A DNA stretch of 64,000 bases, from the NCBI RefSeq assembly GCF_900148505.1, contig NZ_FRXO01000002.1, positions 62,001 to 126,000 of the forward strand, given 5' to 3'. The notes beneath the pieces are model-generated. The model saw only the letters and a program-made list of their open reading frames with translations, was not told where the DNA came from and made no database searches. How positions within the stretch are numbered: position 1 is the stretch's first letter; every line of letters begins with the position of its first letter. This DNA comes from Pseudoxanthobacter soli DSM 19599. GTDB lineage: Bacteria > Pseudomonadota > Alphaproteobacteria > Rhizobiales > Segnochrobactraceae. A program made the translations under genes and the position numbers. This document shows positions 8,649 through 20,581 of this stretch, in pieces.

Positions 8649-9842
8649 TCACGCCTTCAGCGCTTCGACGCCCGGCAGCGGCTTGCCTTCCATCCACTCC
8701 AGGAACGCGCCGCCGGCGGTCGAGATATAGGAGAACGAACCTGCGACACCCGCATGATGGAGCGCCGCGACGGTGTCGCCGCCGCCGGCGATCGAAACAA
8801 GGCTGCCGGCTTTGGTCAGTTCCGCCGCCTTCTTCGCCACCGCGACGGTGCCGCGATCGAACGGCGTCAGTTCGAACGCGCCCAGAGGGCCGTTCCAGAC
8901 CAGCGTCTTCGCCTGTTCGAGCGCGGCGGAGACCGCCGCCACCGACTTTGGCCCGACATCGAGGATCATGCCGTTTGCCGGCACAGCGTCGAGCGCCACG
9001 ACGCTGTTCGGGGCGTTGGCGGCGAAGGCCTCGGCCACCACCGCGTCGTCGGGCAGCACGATCCGGCAGCCGGCCGCATCCGCCGCCTTGACGATCCGCC
9101 GCGCGGTGTCGGCGAGGTCGTGCTCGCACAGCGACTTGCCGACATCGATGCCGCGGGCCGCGAGGAAGGTGTTCGCCATGCCGCCGCCGATCACCAGGAT
9201 GTCGACCTTGGCGACGAGGTTCTCCAGGAGGTCGATCTTGGAGGAGACCTTGGCGCCGCCGACGATGGCCGCGACCGGGCGGGTGGGCGAGCCGAGCGCC
9301 TTGTCGAGCGCGTCGAGTTCGGCCTGCATCGAGCGGCCGGCGAAGGCCGGCAGCACGTGAGCGAGGCCTTCGGTGGAGGCGTGGGCGCGGTGGGCGGCGG
9401 AGAACGCATCGTTGACGTAGAGGTCGCCGTTCGCCGCCAGCGCCTTGACGAAATCGGGGTCGTTGCCTTCCTCGCCGGCGTAGAAGCGGGTGTTCTCCAG
9501 GAGGAGCACGTCGCCCGGCACCATGTTGTCGACCGCGGCCTTCGCGGTCTCGCCGATGCAGTCGCCGGCAAACGCCACCGGGCGGCCGAGATCCTTCGCC
9601 AGCGCCGGCACCACGGCCTCCAGCGACTGCGAGGCGTCGCGCTTGCCCTTCGGGCGGCCGAAATGGGCGAGCAGGATCACCTTGGCGCCCTTGTCCGAAA
9701 GCTCCGCGATGGTCGGCACCACCGCGCGGATGCGGGTGTCGTCGGACACGGCGCCGTCCTTGAACGGCACGTTGAGGTCGACGCGCACCAGCACGCGCTT
9801 CGCGTTCGCGTCGATGTCGTCGAGGGTGCGGAACTTGGCCAT
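8649..9842 (-). CDS. pgk: Phosphoglycerate kinase
   Basis: A 397-residue monomeric kinase transferring phosphate between 1,3-bisphosphoglycerate and ADP. It shows the signature [15 protein letters not shown] near the N-terminus, the substrate-binding [32 protein letters not shown] and the nucleotide-binding GGGDTVAAL near the C-terminus. ATG 9842 ([11 protein letters not shown]) has GGAAGAA upstream and sits 86 bp after gap. A longer open frame continues upstream into antisense of gap and is not coding. Fba follows 187 bp downstream. Confidence 0.96.
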
Positions 9843-15695: not shown

Positions 15696-15838
15696 CGGCG
15701 CGCACGGGAACAGGTGCCCGCCGCCGATGATGGCGCGGGCGGCCCGCGTCCGTTTCCAACCGCGGCGGGAACTTGAAACCGGGCCGCGCCGTCACCAGTT
15801 CCTTGAGGTCTGTTGTTCCAACGGGATCGGGTTCGACG

Positions 15839-16261
15839 ATGAACACATGCTCCGCCTTCCGGCCGGGACGCCATCATCCGGCTCTGTACCTCGCCACGCT
15901 GATCGCCTTCGTGGTCTATTGGCCGGTCGGCCTTGCGCTGGGCGCCTACATTCTGTGGGGCGACCATTTCCGCCAGCTCGCCGGCGACATGCGCAGCCGG
16001 TTCGACGGCGCCTTTGGTGGATCGCGGCAGGGCGGCGGCTTCTCGGCCGATTTCGGCCGCACCGGCAACGTCGCCTTCGACGATTACCGGACGCGTGAAC
16101 TGAAGCGCCTCGAGGAAGAGCGCCGCAAGCTCGACGAGATGCGCGCCGAGTTCGATGCGTTCCTGCGCGAACTGCGCCGCGCCAAGGACCAGGAAGAGTT
16201 CGACCGGTTCATGGCCAACCGCGGCAACTTCCGCCCGGACGCGCCGCCTTCCGGCACATGA
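15839..16261 (+). CDS. DUF2852 family membrane protein
   Basis: 140 residues. One N-terminal membrane segment (LYLATLIAFVVYWPVGLALGAYIL, about 13-36) is followed by a Gly-rich stretch and a charged helix likely to form a coiled coil (TRELKRLEEERRKLDEMRAE). This layout is that of DUF2852 proteins, which are widespread in Hyphomicrobiales and have no known function. ATG 15839 is chosen; a TTG at 15773 would add 22 residues without family character. It follows phaZ on the same strand and ends at a strong terminator. Confidence 0.8.
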   Translation: MNTCSAFRPGRHHPALYLATLIAFVVYWPVGLALGAYILWGDHFRQLAGDMRSRFDGAFGGSRQGGGFSADFGRTGNVAFDDYRTRELKRLEEERRKLDEMRAEFDAFLRELRRAKDQEEFDRFMANRGNFRPDAPPSGT

Positions 16262-16313
16262 GCGAAAGCGGTCCGACGCGACGGGCCATCGACAATACCC
16301 ATCGACATGAAGC

Positions 16314-16354
16314 GAGCGGGGCGCCTCTTTCCGGAGTGCGTCCCGCTCTTTTTT
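16314..16354 (+). terminator. Rho-independent terminator after DUF2852 gene
   Basis: An inverted repeat GAGCGGGGCGC ... GCGTCCCGCTC (11 pairs, one G-T) is followed directly by six T residues on the plus strand, 53 bp after the DUF2852 stop. Confidence 0.85.
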
Positions 16355-16399
16355 CGTCTCGACGTCTGCGGGGTTCCGCGGGCGTGCCGGGCAGCGCCA

Positions 16400-16753
16400 T
16401 CAGCTGGTGATCGTCTGGCCGTTGATCGCCGTGTTGACGGCGCTGCCGACGATGCCGCCGACCGCGGCGCCTCCCGCCGTCACCGCGGCGCCGGTGGTGA
16501 CCAGGCCGGCCGTGGTGGCCGCCGCCATCTCGCCTTCCAGCACGAAGGGCGCGAGCGTGCCGCCGGAGACGACGGTGAGCGCGACGCCCGCCACGGCGCC
16601 GAGGCCGAGGCCGATCCAGGTGCCGAGGCTCAGACCGCCGTTCAGGCCGTCGATTTCGCTGTCGGCGAGGGTCAGGACGCCGGGCTGGCCGGCCATCACC
16701 ATCATGTTGACGTCGTGGGTGTTGAATTCACGGGTGTTGAACTGGGTGGACAT
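16400..16753 (-). CDS. Double-glycine-leader, glycine-zipper peptide (bacteriocin-like), partner A
   Basis: 117 residues with an excellent ribosome site (AAAGGGAGAAG). A leader of 40 residues ends in LADSEIDGLNGG, the double-glycine pattern cleaved by C39-peptidase ABC exporters. The predicted 77-residue core is very hydrophobic, and its first segment is a clean glycine zipper: Gly44, 48, 52 and 56 are spaced every four residues (GTWIGLGLGAVAG). A second Gly-rich helix (AAVGGIVGSAVN) follows. This resembles the two small glycine-zipper proteins of the Caulobacter Cdz contact-dependent bacteriocin. It is the second gene of a two-gene operon, 76 bp after its partner. No exporter or immunity gene is recognised nearby. 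Function is inferred, not shown. Confidence 0.72.
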   Translation of the reverse strand: MSTQFNTREFNTHDVNMMVMAGQPGVLTLADSEIDGLNGGLSLGTWIGLGLGAVAGVALTVVSGGTLAPFVLEGEMAAATTAGLVTTGAAVTAGGAAVGGIVGSAVNTAINGQTITS

Positions 16754-16829
16754 GGGTCTTCTCCCTTTGATCTCAGTCCGATGATGGGAATTTGCGATTG
16801 ATCCGTTACGGAGCCGCTTCGGCTCGCGA

Positions 16830-17129
16830 TCAGCTCATCGAGTTCGCGATGCTCGCGCCCTCGTAGCCGCCGGCGGCGCCGGTCACCGTCGCGGCGACGG
16901 CCGTTCCGACGGTGGTTGCGGTCGCTGCCGCGGCGGCCGTGCCGCCGGCATCGAGGACGAGGGCGGCGACCAGCGGGGCGGCAGCGCCGCCCGTCAGCAC
17001 CGCGGCACCGACACCGACCGCGACGCCCAATGCGGCCCCGAGCACATCCCACCAGCTTCCGCCGGCAACGGCGGCCAGGGCCTCGTCATCGAGGATTTCG
17101 GCCGTGTTGGTCATTGCATGGATCGACAT
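16830..17129 (-). CDS. Double-glycine-leader, glycine-zipper peptide (bacteriocin-like), partner B
   Basis: 99 residues. The 24-residue leader ends ILDDEALAAVAGG, and the core begins SWWDVLGAALGVAVGVG with Gly31, 35 and 39 in zipper spacing. The rest of the core is Ala/Gly/Val/Thr-rich and ends GGYEGASIANSMS. ATG 17129 is preceded by a near-ideal AAGGAGG; an ATG at 17150 is upstream of this site and is rejected. It is first in the operon with partner A, so the two could act together as a two-peptide bacteriocin. The region upstream is duplicated before the second peptide operon at 19364. Confidence 0.75.
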   Translation of the reverse strand: MSIHAMTNTAEILDDEALAAVAGGSWWDVLGAALGVAVGVGAAVLTGGAAAPLVAALVLDAGGTAAAAATATTVGTAVAATVTGAAGGYEGASIANSMS

Positions 17130-17426
17130 TTTTGCCTCCTTCAAGTTCATCTCAAAGCGCCTCGGCTTCCGGATCGGCTTTATATTTCGCCTTCGGAAGT
17201 CTGCGGTGGGGTTGATTTACCGCCGAGAAATAATGACTCTGATCGTCAAAACTTGTCCGGCATCGGCGTTCAAGATGTCGAAGGGAAGAACGAGGTGATT
17301 TCCTGTGTTCGTATCTTCCTGTCGACATCGCCGCGTCGATGAGATGAAGATACTCCTTCCCCATCCGAGGTATAGGGGGGCATACCCCATAGTGGGTACA
17401 TGTCTTGGAATTAACAATCAGTCGCG
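17130..17426 (-). promoter_or_regulatory. Duplicated upstream/leader region, copy 1
   Basis: About 300 bp upstream of the glycine-zipper operon that align, with small gaps, to 19365-19652. Identical blocks include 36 bp at 17322-17357 (containing the inverted repeat TCGAC-N8-GTCGA) and 17 bp at 17409-17425 (AATTAACAATCAGTCGC). The start-codon/ribosome-site zone is also similar. It is AT-richer than its surroundings. It probably holds the promoter and a long 5' leader read on the minus strand. A frame with YLHLIDAAMS is shared by both copies but diverges after it, so a conserved protein is unlikely. Confidence 0.7.
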
Positions 17427-17871
17427 ATTGCAGGATCACGGCAGGTCGAATGCCGCGTGGCCCGACCGTCCGTCATGGCCGGACGTGTCGGCTCTCACTG
17501 CGGGCCACGCGGCGGCCGTGGGACGATCACGCCTGCCAGGGCCGATCGCGGGACAAAGGGTCGGGGACGGGAGGCGTTCAGGGACAGGATATTCAGCGGG
17601 CGTGCGATTCAGCCGCCCGGCGATTCAGCGGCTTGGGTCGTTGGGCAACCGGGGCTCCGATGGCCGGCCCGTTGCGGGGCACCCGCAGCGCCGGAAAGAC
17701 GGCGGAGCGGACGGCCGATCGGCCGGACGGGCCGTCGCCGGGGCGGGCACCTTCCGCACGCAGGACGTTTCGGACCTCAGACAGACAGGGGGCGGCCGCG
17801 CACGGGGGCGGCGGCCGCGGCCGGGACGACGCCGACCGATGGCGGCGCGCCCGGGCGGCCGAAGCGCGGCC
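17427..17871. other. Non-coding stretch with 16-bp-phased direct repeats
   Basis: 445 bp without a convincing gene. It contains three ATTCAGC units starting at 17591, 17607 and 17623, exactly 16 bp apart. Plus-strand ORFs through here give Arg/Gly/Pro-rich translations typical of random GC-rich DNA. Confidence 0.55.
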
Positions 17872-18666
17872 TCAAGGGGTCGCCGGGGCGACCTTCTGGT
17901 AGGTGTTCTTGAAGTCGTCCTGGATCACGGTGGCCTTGCCGCCGGCGGAGAGCAGCAGATCGGTCTGGGGCACGCGCTCGGCGTAGGTCCAGCCCTTCGG
18001 CAGCTTGAGACGCGCGCCGAGATTGGGAAGATCGGCGAAGGACAGCGTCTTGTCGACGATGCGGGCATAGGACTGCATGACATAGACCGCGCCGTCCGGG
18101 GCGGTGAGTTCGAACACCGGCTTGCCGGCATCGAAGCGATAGACCGTATCGCGGTCCACCGTGGTCTCGGTGTAGGGCGCCTGCCTGATGATATCCATCC
18201 AGGAAAGCGCGACTTCAGCCCGCTTCTCGAAGGTGATGCCGCCGATCTCAACCACGTCGCCGTTCATGGTGGCGCCGGAGCCGAGGATGGTATCCATGAT
18301 GAAGTAGCGCGGGCCGTTCATGACGACCATGTAGACGTCGAACCGGTCGCGGACAGCGGCCTCGGTCAGCTTCTCCCAGAGGTCCTCCGGGCAGTCGTCG
18401 TGGCCGACCGTGTTGTAGACGCTGGCCGTGGGGCCCGTCAGCGAGAACGAAAGCGGCAGGATCTCGCAGTAGCGCCGGTCGCGCATCGCCAGCTTGCCGT
18501 TACCTGACATCGACGCCTCCTGCGTGTTGCCCGCCTCGGGCGCGGGTGCGGCCGTCTGGGCACCGGCCGGCGCCGCGGCAAGGACGAGCAGCGCGGACGC
18601 GGCGAGGACGCGCGCCCGCAGGGCGGACATGGCCCCGCCGAGGGGAGAAGCTTGCAAAAGTCCCAT
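17872..18666 (-). CDS. Secreted protein of unknown function
   Basis: 264 residues. The N-terminus MGLLQASPLGGAMSALRARV leads into a hydrophobic signal (LAASALLVLAAAPAGAQ, cleavage near AQ/TA), so the mature protein should be periplasmic or secreted. The mature part has RRYCEILPLSFSLTGPTASV, a second Cys in HDDCPEDLW (the two could form a disulfide), then mixed strands and helices. No family is recognised. ATG 18666 has GGGGAAC upstream; ATG 18630 would still leave a signal peptide. It sits between the two double-glycine peptide operons on the same strand, but a terminator at 18779-18816 separates it from the upstream one. A link to the peptides is only positional. Confidence 0.65.
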   Translation of the reverse strand: MGLLQASPLGGAMSALRARVLAASALLVLAAAPAGAQTAAPAPEAGNTQEASMSGNGKLAMRDRRYCEILPLSFSLTGPTASVYNTVGHDDCPEDLWEKLTEAAVRDRFDVYMVVMNGPRYFIMDTILGSGATMNGDVVEIGGITFEKRAEVALSWMDIIRQAPYTETTVDRDTVYRFDAGKPVFELTAPDGAVYVMQSYARIVDKTLSFADLPNLGARLKLPKGWTYAERVPQTDLLLSAGGKATVIQDDFKNTYQKVAPATP

Positions 18667-18778
18667 GAACGTTCCCCGTTGCCGGTTACGGGGTTCAGCC
18701 TCGCAAATCCTGCCGCAGTGCGGAAGACCGAGCGGGGGATACAGCCAATAATCGCCACCCGCGAAAGCGGCATCGCAA

Positions 18779-18816
18779 CGAAAAAGGCCCCGCCTCTCGC
18801 GAGGCGGAGCCTTTCT
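18779..18816 (-). terminator. Rho-independent terminator of second peptide operon
   Basis: On the minus strand a stem of about 12 bp (GGCTCCGCCTC / GAGGCGGGGCC around GCGA) is followed by TTTTT. It lies 30 bp after the stop of the gene ending at 18846. Confidence 0.88.
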
Positions 18817-18845
18817 CAGGGCAGCGATGCGGCAGAGAGCCTGCA

Positions 18846-19094
18846 TCAGGAGCCGGTGTTGCCGGAGGTCGGCGGCAGGGCGATGCCGGGCCCGAGCGGC
18901 AGGTTGGAAAAGCCCGGCGGCAGCGCGATGCCGGGTCCGAGCGGGAGGCCCACGATGGCCTTTACAGCGTTGGTCGGGTTGAACGGCTCCACCGGGCCGG
19001 GCTCGAAGGGCACGAGGTTGAAGCCGCCATCGACGTGGGCCAGCGCGTCGTCATCGAGCAGCAGGGTATTTTCGTTGGTGTTGAAGGTCGACAT
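18846..19094 (-). CDS. Double-glycine-leader, Pro/Gly repeat peptide
   Basis: 82 residues with ribosome site CTGGAGACGG. The 24-residue leader ends LLLDDDALAHVDGG, matching the leaders of the neighbouring peptides position by position (LDD at 13-15, AL at 17-18, GG at 23-24). The 58-residue core is Pro-rich (FNLVPFEPGPVEPFNPTN) and carries two exact copies of LPLGPGIALPP, 15 residues apart. No cysteine is present. No known peptide family is recognised. It is second in an operon, 60 bp after the Cys/Pro repeat peptide gene, and is followed by a strong terminator. Export by a C39-type ABC transporter is inferred from the leader. Confidence 0.72.
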   Translation of the reverse strand: MSTFNTNENTLLLDDDALAHVDGGFNLVPFEPGPVEPFNPTNAVKAIVGLPLGPGIALPPGFSNLPLGPGIALPPTSGNTGS

Positions 19095-19154
19095 GATCCG
19101 TCTCCAGGTTCGCAGTTCGCAGTTGCAGTTTGCGGTTCGGGTTGATGGTTCGGC

Positions 19155-19364
19155 TCAGTGCGTCGACTGGGTCGGGGGCACGAACTGGTTCGCATCCGGG
19201 TTCGGGCACGGACCGATCGGGAAATTCACCGTCGGGTTCGGGCACGGACCGATGACGGGGTCGGTCGGGTTCGGGCAGGGCCCGAACCAGTAGCCGCCGG
19301 AGACGGCGACCAGCGCCTCGTCATCGAGGAAGTTCGCACCGGTGTTGATTTCGAAGATCGACAT
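19155..19364 (-). CDS. Double-glycine-leader, GPCPNP-repeat peptide
   Basis: 69 residues. The 24-residue leader ends FLDDEALVAVSGG. The predicted 45-residue core contains three GPCPNP repeats (three Cys) separated by short hydrophobic/Pro segments and ends FVPPTQSTH. ATG 19364 is chosen because the leader then has the same length as its paralogues and GAGG precedes it; the ATG at 19415 would add 17 residues absent from the relatives. It is first of two genes behind upstream copy 2. No known family matches; an exported antimicrobial, signalling or metal-binding peptide is possible, but none of these is shown. Confidence 0.73.
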   Translation of the reverse strand: MSIFEINTGANFLDDEALVAVSGGYWFGPCPNPTDPVIGPCPNPTVNFPIGPCPNPDANQFVPPTQSTH

Positions 19365-19652
19365 GATTGCCTCACTCAAGTTCGGGTTCAGACAAGGCCG
19401 CATCCGGATTTCCAAAGGGATTTTCCGGAGGTGTCCCGTTGATTTTTACATCGCCGAGAAAGAATGGCTCGTGGCATCAAGACTTGGTCGGCATCGGCGT
19501 TTGTGATGTTTTCAGAAGAAGCGATTTTAGTTTCGTCGTTTCTTCGTTCGACATCGCCGCGTCGATGAGATGAAGATACTCCTCTGCGCCGTGTTGAATA
19601 GACGGCTGTTCCCCAAAGCGGGTACATTTCCTGTAATTAACAATCAGTCGCA
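19365..19652 (-). promoter_or_regulatory. Duplicated upstream/leader region, copy 2
   Basis: This aligns with 17130-17426. The identical 36-bp block is at 19548-19583 and AATTAACAATCAGTCGC is at 19635-19651; GGGTACAT and CGCCGAGAAA boxes are also shared. As in copy 1 it lies directly upstream of a double-glycine peptide operon, which suggests common regulation. The remaining bases to 19807 (the start of the next plus-strand gene) show nothing further. Confidence 0.7.
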
Positions 19653-19807
19653 TCAACGCGCGGGCCGAGTGCGCCGGCGGACTGACGGCAGACATCGCGC
19701 CGGGAACGCGGCAGACTGGAGCGGCGCGATTCGGCCCGCCCGGCCGGCTCGCGGGCTCCCCGTTTCATCCGCCAGGTTCTGCCGTCAGGGTTGGCCGTTC
19801 ACGCCTC

Positions 19808-20581
19808 ATGGGTCTGTTCCAAACCATCTCGGAGGTCCGCCGCCGGACCGCCCGGCCGCTGCCCGAGACGCTCGCGGTCGAGATCGACCGCCGCATCGTA
19901 CCGGTGCGGCTGCGGGTCAACGCGCGTGCGCGCCGCCTGACGCTGCGGCTGCCGATCGGCACGGATTCGCCTGTCGTCACCGTGCCGCCCAGGGTGAACG
20001 AGGCGGCGGTGCGTGCCTTCCTGCACGAACACCGCGCCTGGCTCGCCGAACGCATGGCGCGGCGGCCGCAGCCGGTGCCGTTCCGCGCCGGCGAGACCGT
20101 TCCGTTCCGCGGCACGCCGCACCTGATCCACCATGACGGCCGGATGCGCGGCGGCGTCCGCGCGGAGATCGGGGAGGACGGCGTTGCGCGCCTCGTCGTC
20201 AGCGGGGATCCGCTGGCGCTGCCGCGCCGGGTGTCGACCTTCCTGCGGCGCGAGGCCGAAGCCGCCATCAATCACGCCGTCCGGCGCGACACCGCTGCCC
20301 TCGGCGTCGCGGCGAAGGCCGTGCGCATCCGCGACACCACCAGCCGGTGGGGCTCGTGCACCAGCGACGGCATCCTCTCGTTCTCATGGCGGGTCGTGCT
20401 GGCGCCGCCGTTCGTTCTCGACTATCTCGTCGCGCACGAAGTGGCCCATCTCGTGGAGATGAACCATTCGCCCGCCTTCTGGCGGCTCGTCGCGCGGCTT
20501 CACCCGGAAGCGCGGCAGGGTCGTCTCTGGCTCAAGCAGCACGGTCCGCTGCTCCACGCCATCGGTCCCCGAGACGCCTGA
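19808..20581 (+). CDS. YgjP/SprT-like metallopeptidase (DUF45, M48-type)
   Basis: 257 residues. The zinc motif HEVAHLVEMNH gives His211, Glu212 and His215, with His220 as a likely third ligand. The preceding DTTSRWGSCTSDGILSFSW and following FWRLVARLHPE are hallmarks of the YgjP/DUF45 family of small cytoplasmic zinc peptidases. The substrate is unknown. Start MGLFQTISEV is the only good N-terminal ATG. The AEC transporter gene follows on the same strand. Confidence 0.9.
   Translation: MGLFQTISEVRRRTARPLPETLAVEIDRRIVPVRLRVNARARRLTLRLPIGTDSPVVTVPPRVNEAAVRAFLHEHRAWLAERMARRPQPVPFRAGETVPFRGTPHLIHHDGRMRGGVRAEIGEDGVARLVVSGDPLALPRRVSTFLRREAEAAINHAVRRDTAALGVAAKAVRIRDTTSRWGSCTSDGILSFSWRVVLAPPFVLDYLVAHEVAHLVEMNHSPAFWRLVARLHPEARQGRLWLKQHGPLLHAIGPRDA

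Follow-up and report, generated by a model that had tools for sequence, protein, structure and literature searches.

The 64-kb window analysed here, that is, the whole stretch C2:62001-126000 of Pseudoxanthobacter soli DSM 19599 (the own genome, G000), contains four small open reading frames (ORFs) with double-glycine leaders, which lie in two pairs that we call operon A (A1 and A2) and operon B (B1 and B2; Table 1, window coordinates). We suggest that they encode precursors of small secreted peptides and belong to a dispersed regulon whose products would be exported in trans by an NHLM-type exporter encoded elsewhere on contig C2, a reading to which we give a probability of about 0.72. It is built on the ORFs and their leaders, an upstream module that they share, the exporter genes and the linkage of exporter and leaders in a sister genus; cleavage, export and co-regulation we infer from these.

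Conserved leaders, unlike cores and a shared upstream module

The leaders of A1, A2 and B1 carry LDD at residues 13-15, AL at 17-18 and GG at 23-24, all in register, and that of B2 ends in ADSEIDGLNGG at residue 40. When the strict leader pattern was searched for in ATG-anchored form, the window gave three matches and 60 dinucleotide-preserving shuffles gave none, which bears out an earlier note, made from the letters of this DNA, that had described four small genes with GG-ending leaders, three of them with this 24-residue geometry. A looser double-glycine scan, designed after the four ORFs were already known, recovered exactly A1, A2, B1 and B2 from the 64 kb. The G+C content at third codon positions (GC3) of the four ORFs is 0.90, 0.90, 0.85 and 0.95, against 0.89-0.93 in four adjacent genes.

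Behind these leaders the cores, 45-77 residues long in the window, are of two kinds. The GPCPNP and LPLGPGIALPP repeats reported by the earlier note are both present, three times in A1 and twice in A2, with DNA identity between repeats of up to 100% in A1 and 91% in A2; the A1 core has one Cys per repeat. Between B1 and B2 the cores are similar (z 5.7), and G, A, V, I, L, M and F make up 71-73% of them. Their description as glycine zippers needs a qualification: B2 has three overlapping GxxxGxxxG motifs (shuffle P 0.028), and the single motif of B1 is no more than composition alone explains (shuffle P 0.24). The structure model of B1 is helical at low confidence, with a mean predicted local distance difference test score (pLDDT) of 62.7.

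The regions upstream of the two operons, also judged similar in the earlier note, are 74% identical over 214 bp and include a box of 36 identical bases; a 34-base pattern taken from this box occurs exactly twice in the window against a chance expectation of 0.00. Two further members were found elsewhere in the genome. With A1 as the query we located C5 (E 0.018), which encodes MSVFARHNANVALDDVALQSVTGG followed by a core of GPGPAIPP repeats, and the leader profile gave C8 (E 0.09), whose leader ends in IIDDAALAEISGA. The same upstream module stands in front of C8 and supports its membership, the leader match being weak by itself. An operator model of 40 columns, built from the four sites of A, B, C5 and C8, recovers those sites and a fifth, unused one at C7:159713-159743 (E 5.7e-4), so that the module is common to five own-genome loci; the next-best matches have E 0.44 (in G001, the sister genus) and 0.53 (in G000), and none was found in G002, the other genome of the family that was compared. 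All five loci share TTAA-T----GA-AT-TAC-C----TGGG, with the box around AGG about 30 bp downstream, and the module holds an inverted repeat, TACCC...GGGTA, which we presume to be akin to NarL/LuxR-type operators and from which we guess at a LuxR/NarL-type regulator. The ORF behind the module on contig C7 (L086:9195-9458) encodes a hydrophobic protein of 87 residues and may represent a decayed leader or a different export route. As to the downstream box, we set aside its reading as an upstream ORF, since aligning the C5 copy requires a one-base insertion (not a strong test), and for the same reason it seems likelier to be a DNA or RNA element than coding; folding of the module as RNA finds no support in its predicted structure, which has 9 pairs, one of them with a double change, at -6.5 kcal/mol.

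The likeness of the leaders extends to their DNA. Those of A1 and A2 use the identical codon at 12 of 12 shared residues and are 68% identical in DNA, those of A1 and B1 at 10 of 14 and 74%, against an ungapped DNA identity of 33-34% between the cores of the same pairs. Remoter leaders have fewer codons in common (C5 and C8, two of six). In the closest pairs, then, it appears that the leader DNA itself was copied, beyond the protein motif. That very different cores are tolerated behind the leader of one exporter is known for microcin V, whose exporter secreted random cargos of 26-66 residues above background, with secretion dropping at 116 residues (PMC10231218).

Table 1. Peptide genes, upstream elements and other features of the window
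Feature	Position	Strand	Description
A1	19155-19364	minus	69-residue precursor; 24-residue leader MSIFEINTGANFLDDEALVAVSGG; Pro-rich core, GPCPNP x3
A2	18846-19094	minus	82-residue precursor; 24-residue leader; core carrying LPLGPGIALPP x2
B1	16830-17129	minus	99-residue precursor; 24-residue leader; Gly/Ala-rich, hydrophobic core
B2	16400-16753	minus	117-residue precursor; 40-residue leader ending LTLADSEIDGLNGG; hydrophobic core, GxxxGxxxG
Operator-like element, operon A	19613-19651	minus	TTAATTACAGGAAATGTACCCGCTTTGG; one of the four sites of the sequence model; in the five-locus alignment
Operator-like element, operon B	17387-17426	minus	TTAATTCCAAGACATGTACCCACTATGG; one of the four sites of the sequence model; in the five-locus alignment
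Downstream box, operon A module	19548-19583	minus	36 bp, identical to operon B box
Downstream box, operon B module	17322-17357	minus	36 bp, identical to operon A box
Terminator-like hairpin	18787-18805	minus	after A2, separating operon A from the 264-residue gene
264-residue gene	17872-18666	minus	between the operons; judged outside the system

The proposed exporter and the sister genus

The earlier note saw no C39 exporter in the window, and none was found there; it had staked its idea on one being encoded elsewhere in the genome, which has two C39 matches, at C2:526527 and C6:199162. The first belongs to a set of HlyD, C39-ABC and ABC genes at C2:521.8-528.4 kb, about 440 kb from the window peptides, and all three products pass the NCBIfam cut-offs for the NHLM type (C39-ABC, TIGR03796, 1000.7 against 853.3; ABC, TIGR03797, 820 against 709.4; HlyD, TIGR03794, 239.2 against 156.2). 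The C39 domains of C2 and C6 both retain Cys, His and Asp. At C6 the HlyD passes TIGR03794 and the C39-ABC falls under the TIGR03796 cut-off (644.1 against 853.3), the second ABC of that locus lying outside the scan.

Since no short leader peptides were recognised near either exporter, the choice of C2 rests on orthology with the sister genus. G001 has a single C39 exporter, whose C39-ABC, ABC and HlyD are 74, 60 and 69% identical to those of C2 and 38, 32 and 25% to those of C6. The leader profile of A1, A2, B1 and C5 found four loci in G001 (best E 4e-5), and reading the frames around the matches gave 12 leader peptides at three loci; with C5 and C8, these are the yield of the search for more leaders that the earlier note had proposed. 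In G001 the exporter operon is followed, 460 bp on and on the same strand, by six leader peptides with hydrophobic, GPGPALPP and other cores, a second locus holds five, including a peptide with GPCPNP repeats, and a third holds one. G002 yielded neither a C39 exporter nor leaders.

Some of the cores have relatives in G001. The A1 core has a homologue with two GPCPNP repeats (L037:9961-10203), and the A2 core is related to the GPGPALPP peptides adjoining the exporter (z 7.0 and 5.2); measured against 300 shuffles each, cross-genus similarity reaches z 10.2 for A1, 7.0 for A2 and 9.1 for C5. G001 also has a repeated upstream module of its own, which differs from that of the own genome and is found in front of six peptide units at three loci, with 74-90% identity over 99-458 bp; one further unit (L038:9979-10161) has just 30 bp of it in common. 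As each genus repeats its own module, leader and upstream DNA appear in both genera to form a conserved cassette that fronts changing cores. The earlier idea of a secreted-peptide island with leader and regulation kept and the cargo swapped is thus supported, by the exporter, the further leaders, the conserved leader DNA and the module at five loci, and needs some correction: the units are dispersed and form no island, and although the cores do differ behind conserved leaders, "swapped" is too strong in one respect, since families of Pro-rich cores recur from one genus to the other.

In our model, one upstream control module would govern a regulon of no fewer than five scattered transcription units: A, B, C5, C8 and the leaderless C7. 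The C39 domain of the C2 NHLM-type exporter would recognise the leader, which ends in L-D-D-x-A-L-x-x-V-x-G-G, and cleave it behind GG, and the core would leave the cell through the C2 ABC/HlyD system and a presumed outer-membrane channel. The unit of duplication would be upstream module plus leader, the core being exchanged among GPCPNP repeats, GPGxAxPP repeats and hydrophobic Gly/Ala-rich sequences.

Several observations weigh against this model. A1, A2, B1 and B2 reach no Pfam or NCBIfam cut-off, and no short leader peptide was recognised in the 20 kb around either own exporter; C6, with the same three residues in its C39 domain, could serve the same leaders. The C8 leader is weak by itself and ends in GA, and the C7 ORF behind the same module has no GG leader. 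The own-genome module was not found in G001 by the operator model. Of the ten G001 cores compared, none matches B1 or B2 above z 4, and A1 scores z 4.1 against an unlike hydrophobic G001 core, which sets the noise level of such scores.

Function and rival explanations

We tentatively suggest that the peptides act in contact- or surface-based antagonism, in which the hydrophobic ones may be membrane-active and the Pro-rich ones surface or accessory partners; only slightly less likely is a role in a surface or biofilm matrix. The antagonistic reading in its narrower form, that these are bacteriocins resembling Cdz or class II microcins, their immunity being unlinked or unrecognised, is credible at somewhat less than even odds. 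Operon B resembles Cdz of Caulobacter crescentus (PMC5380434), likewise from an alphaproteobacterium, in being a two-gene operon with GG leaders and hydrophobic Gly-rich cores, a comparison by description in which the CdzC and CdzD sequences were not aligned with B1 and B2. Both B1 (99 residues) and B2 (117 residues) fall within the size and leader limits given for Cdz-like peptides (60-151 residues, leader ending G[G/A/S]) and have the short polar end described there. However, the Cdz cluster includes an exporter and a three-transmembrane immunity gene, neither of which was found linked here: of the type I exporter and small transmembrane immunity gene that mark Cdz-like clusters, the window has no C39 exporter and positions 16200-20000 no such immunity ORF. 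The zipper count of B1 is what its composition predicts, and the Pro-rich A1 and A2 do not fit. Class II microcins (PMC9746304) share the GG signal, a C39 ABC protein with Cys, His and Asp and an HlyD-type fusion protein, all present in this genome; they differ in that no cognate immunity gene was recognised here and that the NHLM-type exporter has a second ABC protein.

The antibacterial guess is further weighed down by a hydropathy scan (35-220 residues, ribosome-site match, GC3 >0.75, 19-residue mean >1.6; 16200-20000 in the window), in which no dedicated immunity gene was recognised at the peptide loci of both genera and which also gave a few seemingly spurious frames. Three neighbours are probably ordinary neighbours rather than immunity genes: a DUF2852 gene adjoining operon B at 15773-16261, outside the interval scanned; a LapA-domain protein next to C5 on the opposite strand; and, adjoining the L037 cluster of G001, a 170-residue ORF that starts with a signal-like segment and reaches no Pfam cut-off. 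The first two are small hydrophobic proteins of general families. Immunity proteins of class II microcins have no common sequence (PMC9746304). The failure to recognise an immunity partner makes bacteriocins less likely and leaves room for a matrix role.

Almost as plausible, in our estimate, is that the peptides are building blocks of the extracellular matrix or cell surface and not antibacterial, comparable to EbfG, with repeats and hydrophobic cores made for self-assembly. Several cores per genome under one module and the lack of a recognised dedicated immunity gene agree with this, as does the finding that biofilms of a cyanobacterium are made possible by small GG-motif proteins that rely on a C39 transporter (PMC4997328); glycine zippers are linked to aggregation too (PMC5380434). 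EbfG1-4 and PteB of Synechococcus elongatus (PMC4997328) are similar in that several co-expressed GG-motif small proteins need a C39 transporter, and differ in that the genes are co-transcribed in one cluster; the likeness is one of description, the cores not having been compared. Against a matrix role, no matrix genes were recognised next to the peptides, though no search was aimed at them, and the hydrophobic cores are roughly similar in composition to CdzC and CdzD (75% G, A, V and I; PMC5380434), the two measures being different.

That the C6 exporter handles these leaders and C2 something else we consider improbable. In its favour, Cys, His and Asp are retained in the C6 C39-ABC and the C6 HlyD is over the TIGR03794 cut-off, but the C39-ABC misses the NHLM cut-off and is 38% identical to the leader-linked exporter of G001, and C6 has a candidate cargo of its own close by. 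This is a protein of 828 residues (L018:5114-7600) that starts MIMKNNDDAVPGSENSNDALSSDILKSIVGG, belongs to no Pfam or NCBIfam family and looks like a large GG-leader cargo. In the same region, a 205-residue ORF without an NCBIfam family and a second one similar to it by eye lie upstream of the C6 C39-ABC (L018:7655-9000), and beside the exporter is a Gly-rich ORF of 1467 residues (L018:15438-19841) whose end resembles, by eye, an autotransporter barrel.

It is less probable still that the four genes encode precursors of ribosomally synthesised and post-translationally modified peptides (RiPPs), the classical cargo of NHLM exporters. The exporter type was defined together with NHLP/Nif11 precursors (Haft et al. 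2010, PMC2887384), and each A1 repeat has one Cys, but the A2, C5, B1 and B2 cores have none. The NHLP leader domain TIGR03793 has no match in G000 or G001 (E up to 1), and the NCBIfam precursor families, Nif11-type included, do not match the four window peptides (E up to 5; no genome-wide search with TIGR03798 was made). As described in PMC2887384, the NHLM systems resemble ours in the three-gene exporter, in paralogous precursors with a constant leader and a variable core, in having some precursors away from the cluster and in the proposal that the leader is cleaved upon export. The differences are that leaders here have 18-27 residues (40 in B2) against the 77 positions of the NHLP leader, that NHLP matches are lacking and that Pro-rich repeat cores occur; a modifying enzyme was not noticed at the peptide loci, in a survey without a search aimed at one. 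In G002, where no C39 match was found, two matches to the NHLP leader lie below the cut-off (35.2 and 20.3 bits; G002:C103:8294-8683, L089 and L090).

Finally, overlapping open frames do abound in this GC-rich region, but with no hit in 60 shuffles, gene-like GC3 and relatives of both the leaders and the Pro-rich cores in a second genus, the odds that the four are chance ORFs are close to nil.

Returning to the dispersed regulon served by C2, each of its parts belongs to a known kind: Gram-negative double-glycine precursors, like sets of precursors around cyanobacterial NHLM-type exporters, have long been known (PMC3140520). Among the entries listed in the open-licence literature searched, we found no description of these Pro-rich repeat peptides or of this arrangement, and so far as that literature goes the Pro-rich peptides may be secreted bacterial peptides of a kind not yet characterised. 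A bolder version of the model is doubtful: a cargo-swapping regulon in which a duplicating cassette of promoter module and 24-residue leader is spread chromosome-wide, each copy with another core behind it, and served by one NHLM machine, the Pro-rich repeat peptides (GPCPNP, GPGPAIPP) and their hydrophobic, membrane-active partners forming a new two-part class that is reassorted between operons and genera without dedicated immunity genes. The dispersed units with their shared control module offer a compact test of whether the exporter reads the leader alone.

Other features of the window and exporters of the order

The 264-residue gene between the operons has a signal-like start and homologues in G001 (59%) and G002 (43%), with a weak one in G039 among the 61 genomes searched. 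We considered it as an immunity or accessory gene and excluded it, as its homologues in the two relatives are not near peptides: in G001 it lies at a distance from the peptide loci that were found, and in G002 neither a C39 exporter nor leaders were seen. Its structure model is uninformative (pLDDT 34.1). Outside this gene, comparison of the three loci by blastn and tblastx gave scattered short matches only (for tblastx, among the matches listed). The terminator-like hairpin after A2 is weak taken alone, since five such sites were found in the window against 2.9 expected in shuffles. Rfam and tRNA searches across the window gave no matches.

The leaders themselves have a narrow distribution. 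At E up to 0.01 the four-leader profile found four of 121 genomes: the own, G001, G024 and G031, the last two judged to be chance after reading. A 17-leader profile, 12 of whose training leaders come from G001, so that its counts in G000 (5) and G001 (12) are not independent, found matches in three genomes beyond these two among 397 of the order, all weak and inside frames of 493-1257 residues. The class-level search found one of 385 genomes, the own, among the matches listed, G001 not being among them, and A1 has no match on the plasmids searched. When the C2 exporter was scanned against wider genome contigs, 16 loci were found, none from Alphaproteobacteria.

NHLM exporters are more widespread, with 23 loci over the TIGR03796 cut-off in 21 of the 397 genomes. 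Besides those of the own genome and G001, we took 16 of 21 neighbourhoods (15 of 19 genomes), the five left out being mostly on apparent short contigs. At least one double-glycine ORF was found in 11 of the 16, with leaders of 17 to 78 residues, where three rounds of shuffling gave 1, 0 and 1 of 16; counts per locus are upper bounds (one of four L110 matches resembles a cyclic-nucleotide-binding protein), which leaves the 11 of 16 unaffected. On control DNA the scan found no such ORF in the 54.8 kb of L086-L088, and its two hits in L039 were a true peptide and a spurious frame. Modified peptides with long leaders served to define the NHLM exporters. Here and around others of the order there are also short leaders of the double-glycine type, followed by unlike cores, so gene callers and RiPP miners may miss part of the cargo.

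Of four named plasmid neighbourhoods, two contain double-glycine ORFs, and the scan found none at the exporters of the Azospirillum oryzae and Pseudoroseomonas cervicalis plasmids. The Mesorhizobium plasmid exporter adjoins an annotated Nif11-like precursor and radical SAM enzymes. On plasmid pCB82_1 of Bradyrhizobium sp. CB82 (NZ_CP121651.1), five annotated small ORFs near an NHLP exporter have an identical 16-residue leader, MIRELIDTELEVVAGG, and two kinds of core; the short shared leader near such an exporter recalls our peptides, but leader and cores are different and the genes are clustered, not dispersed. Two small peptide genes of this plasmid recur about 2.9 kb on, with the same protein accessions, beside the exporter (L123:15515-19375). 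At L102 (G112 C23) near-identical copies of a double-glycine peptide pair flank the exporter gene (996-1457, minus; 8945-9406, plus), and at L105:7101-8379 (G302) five successive precursors have leaders of 38-78 residues and similar tails, possibly a series running from long to short leaders.

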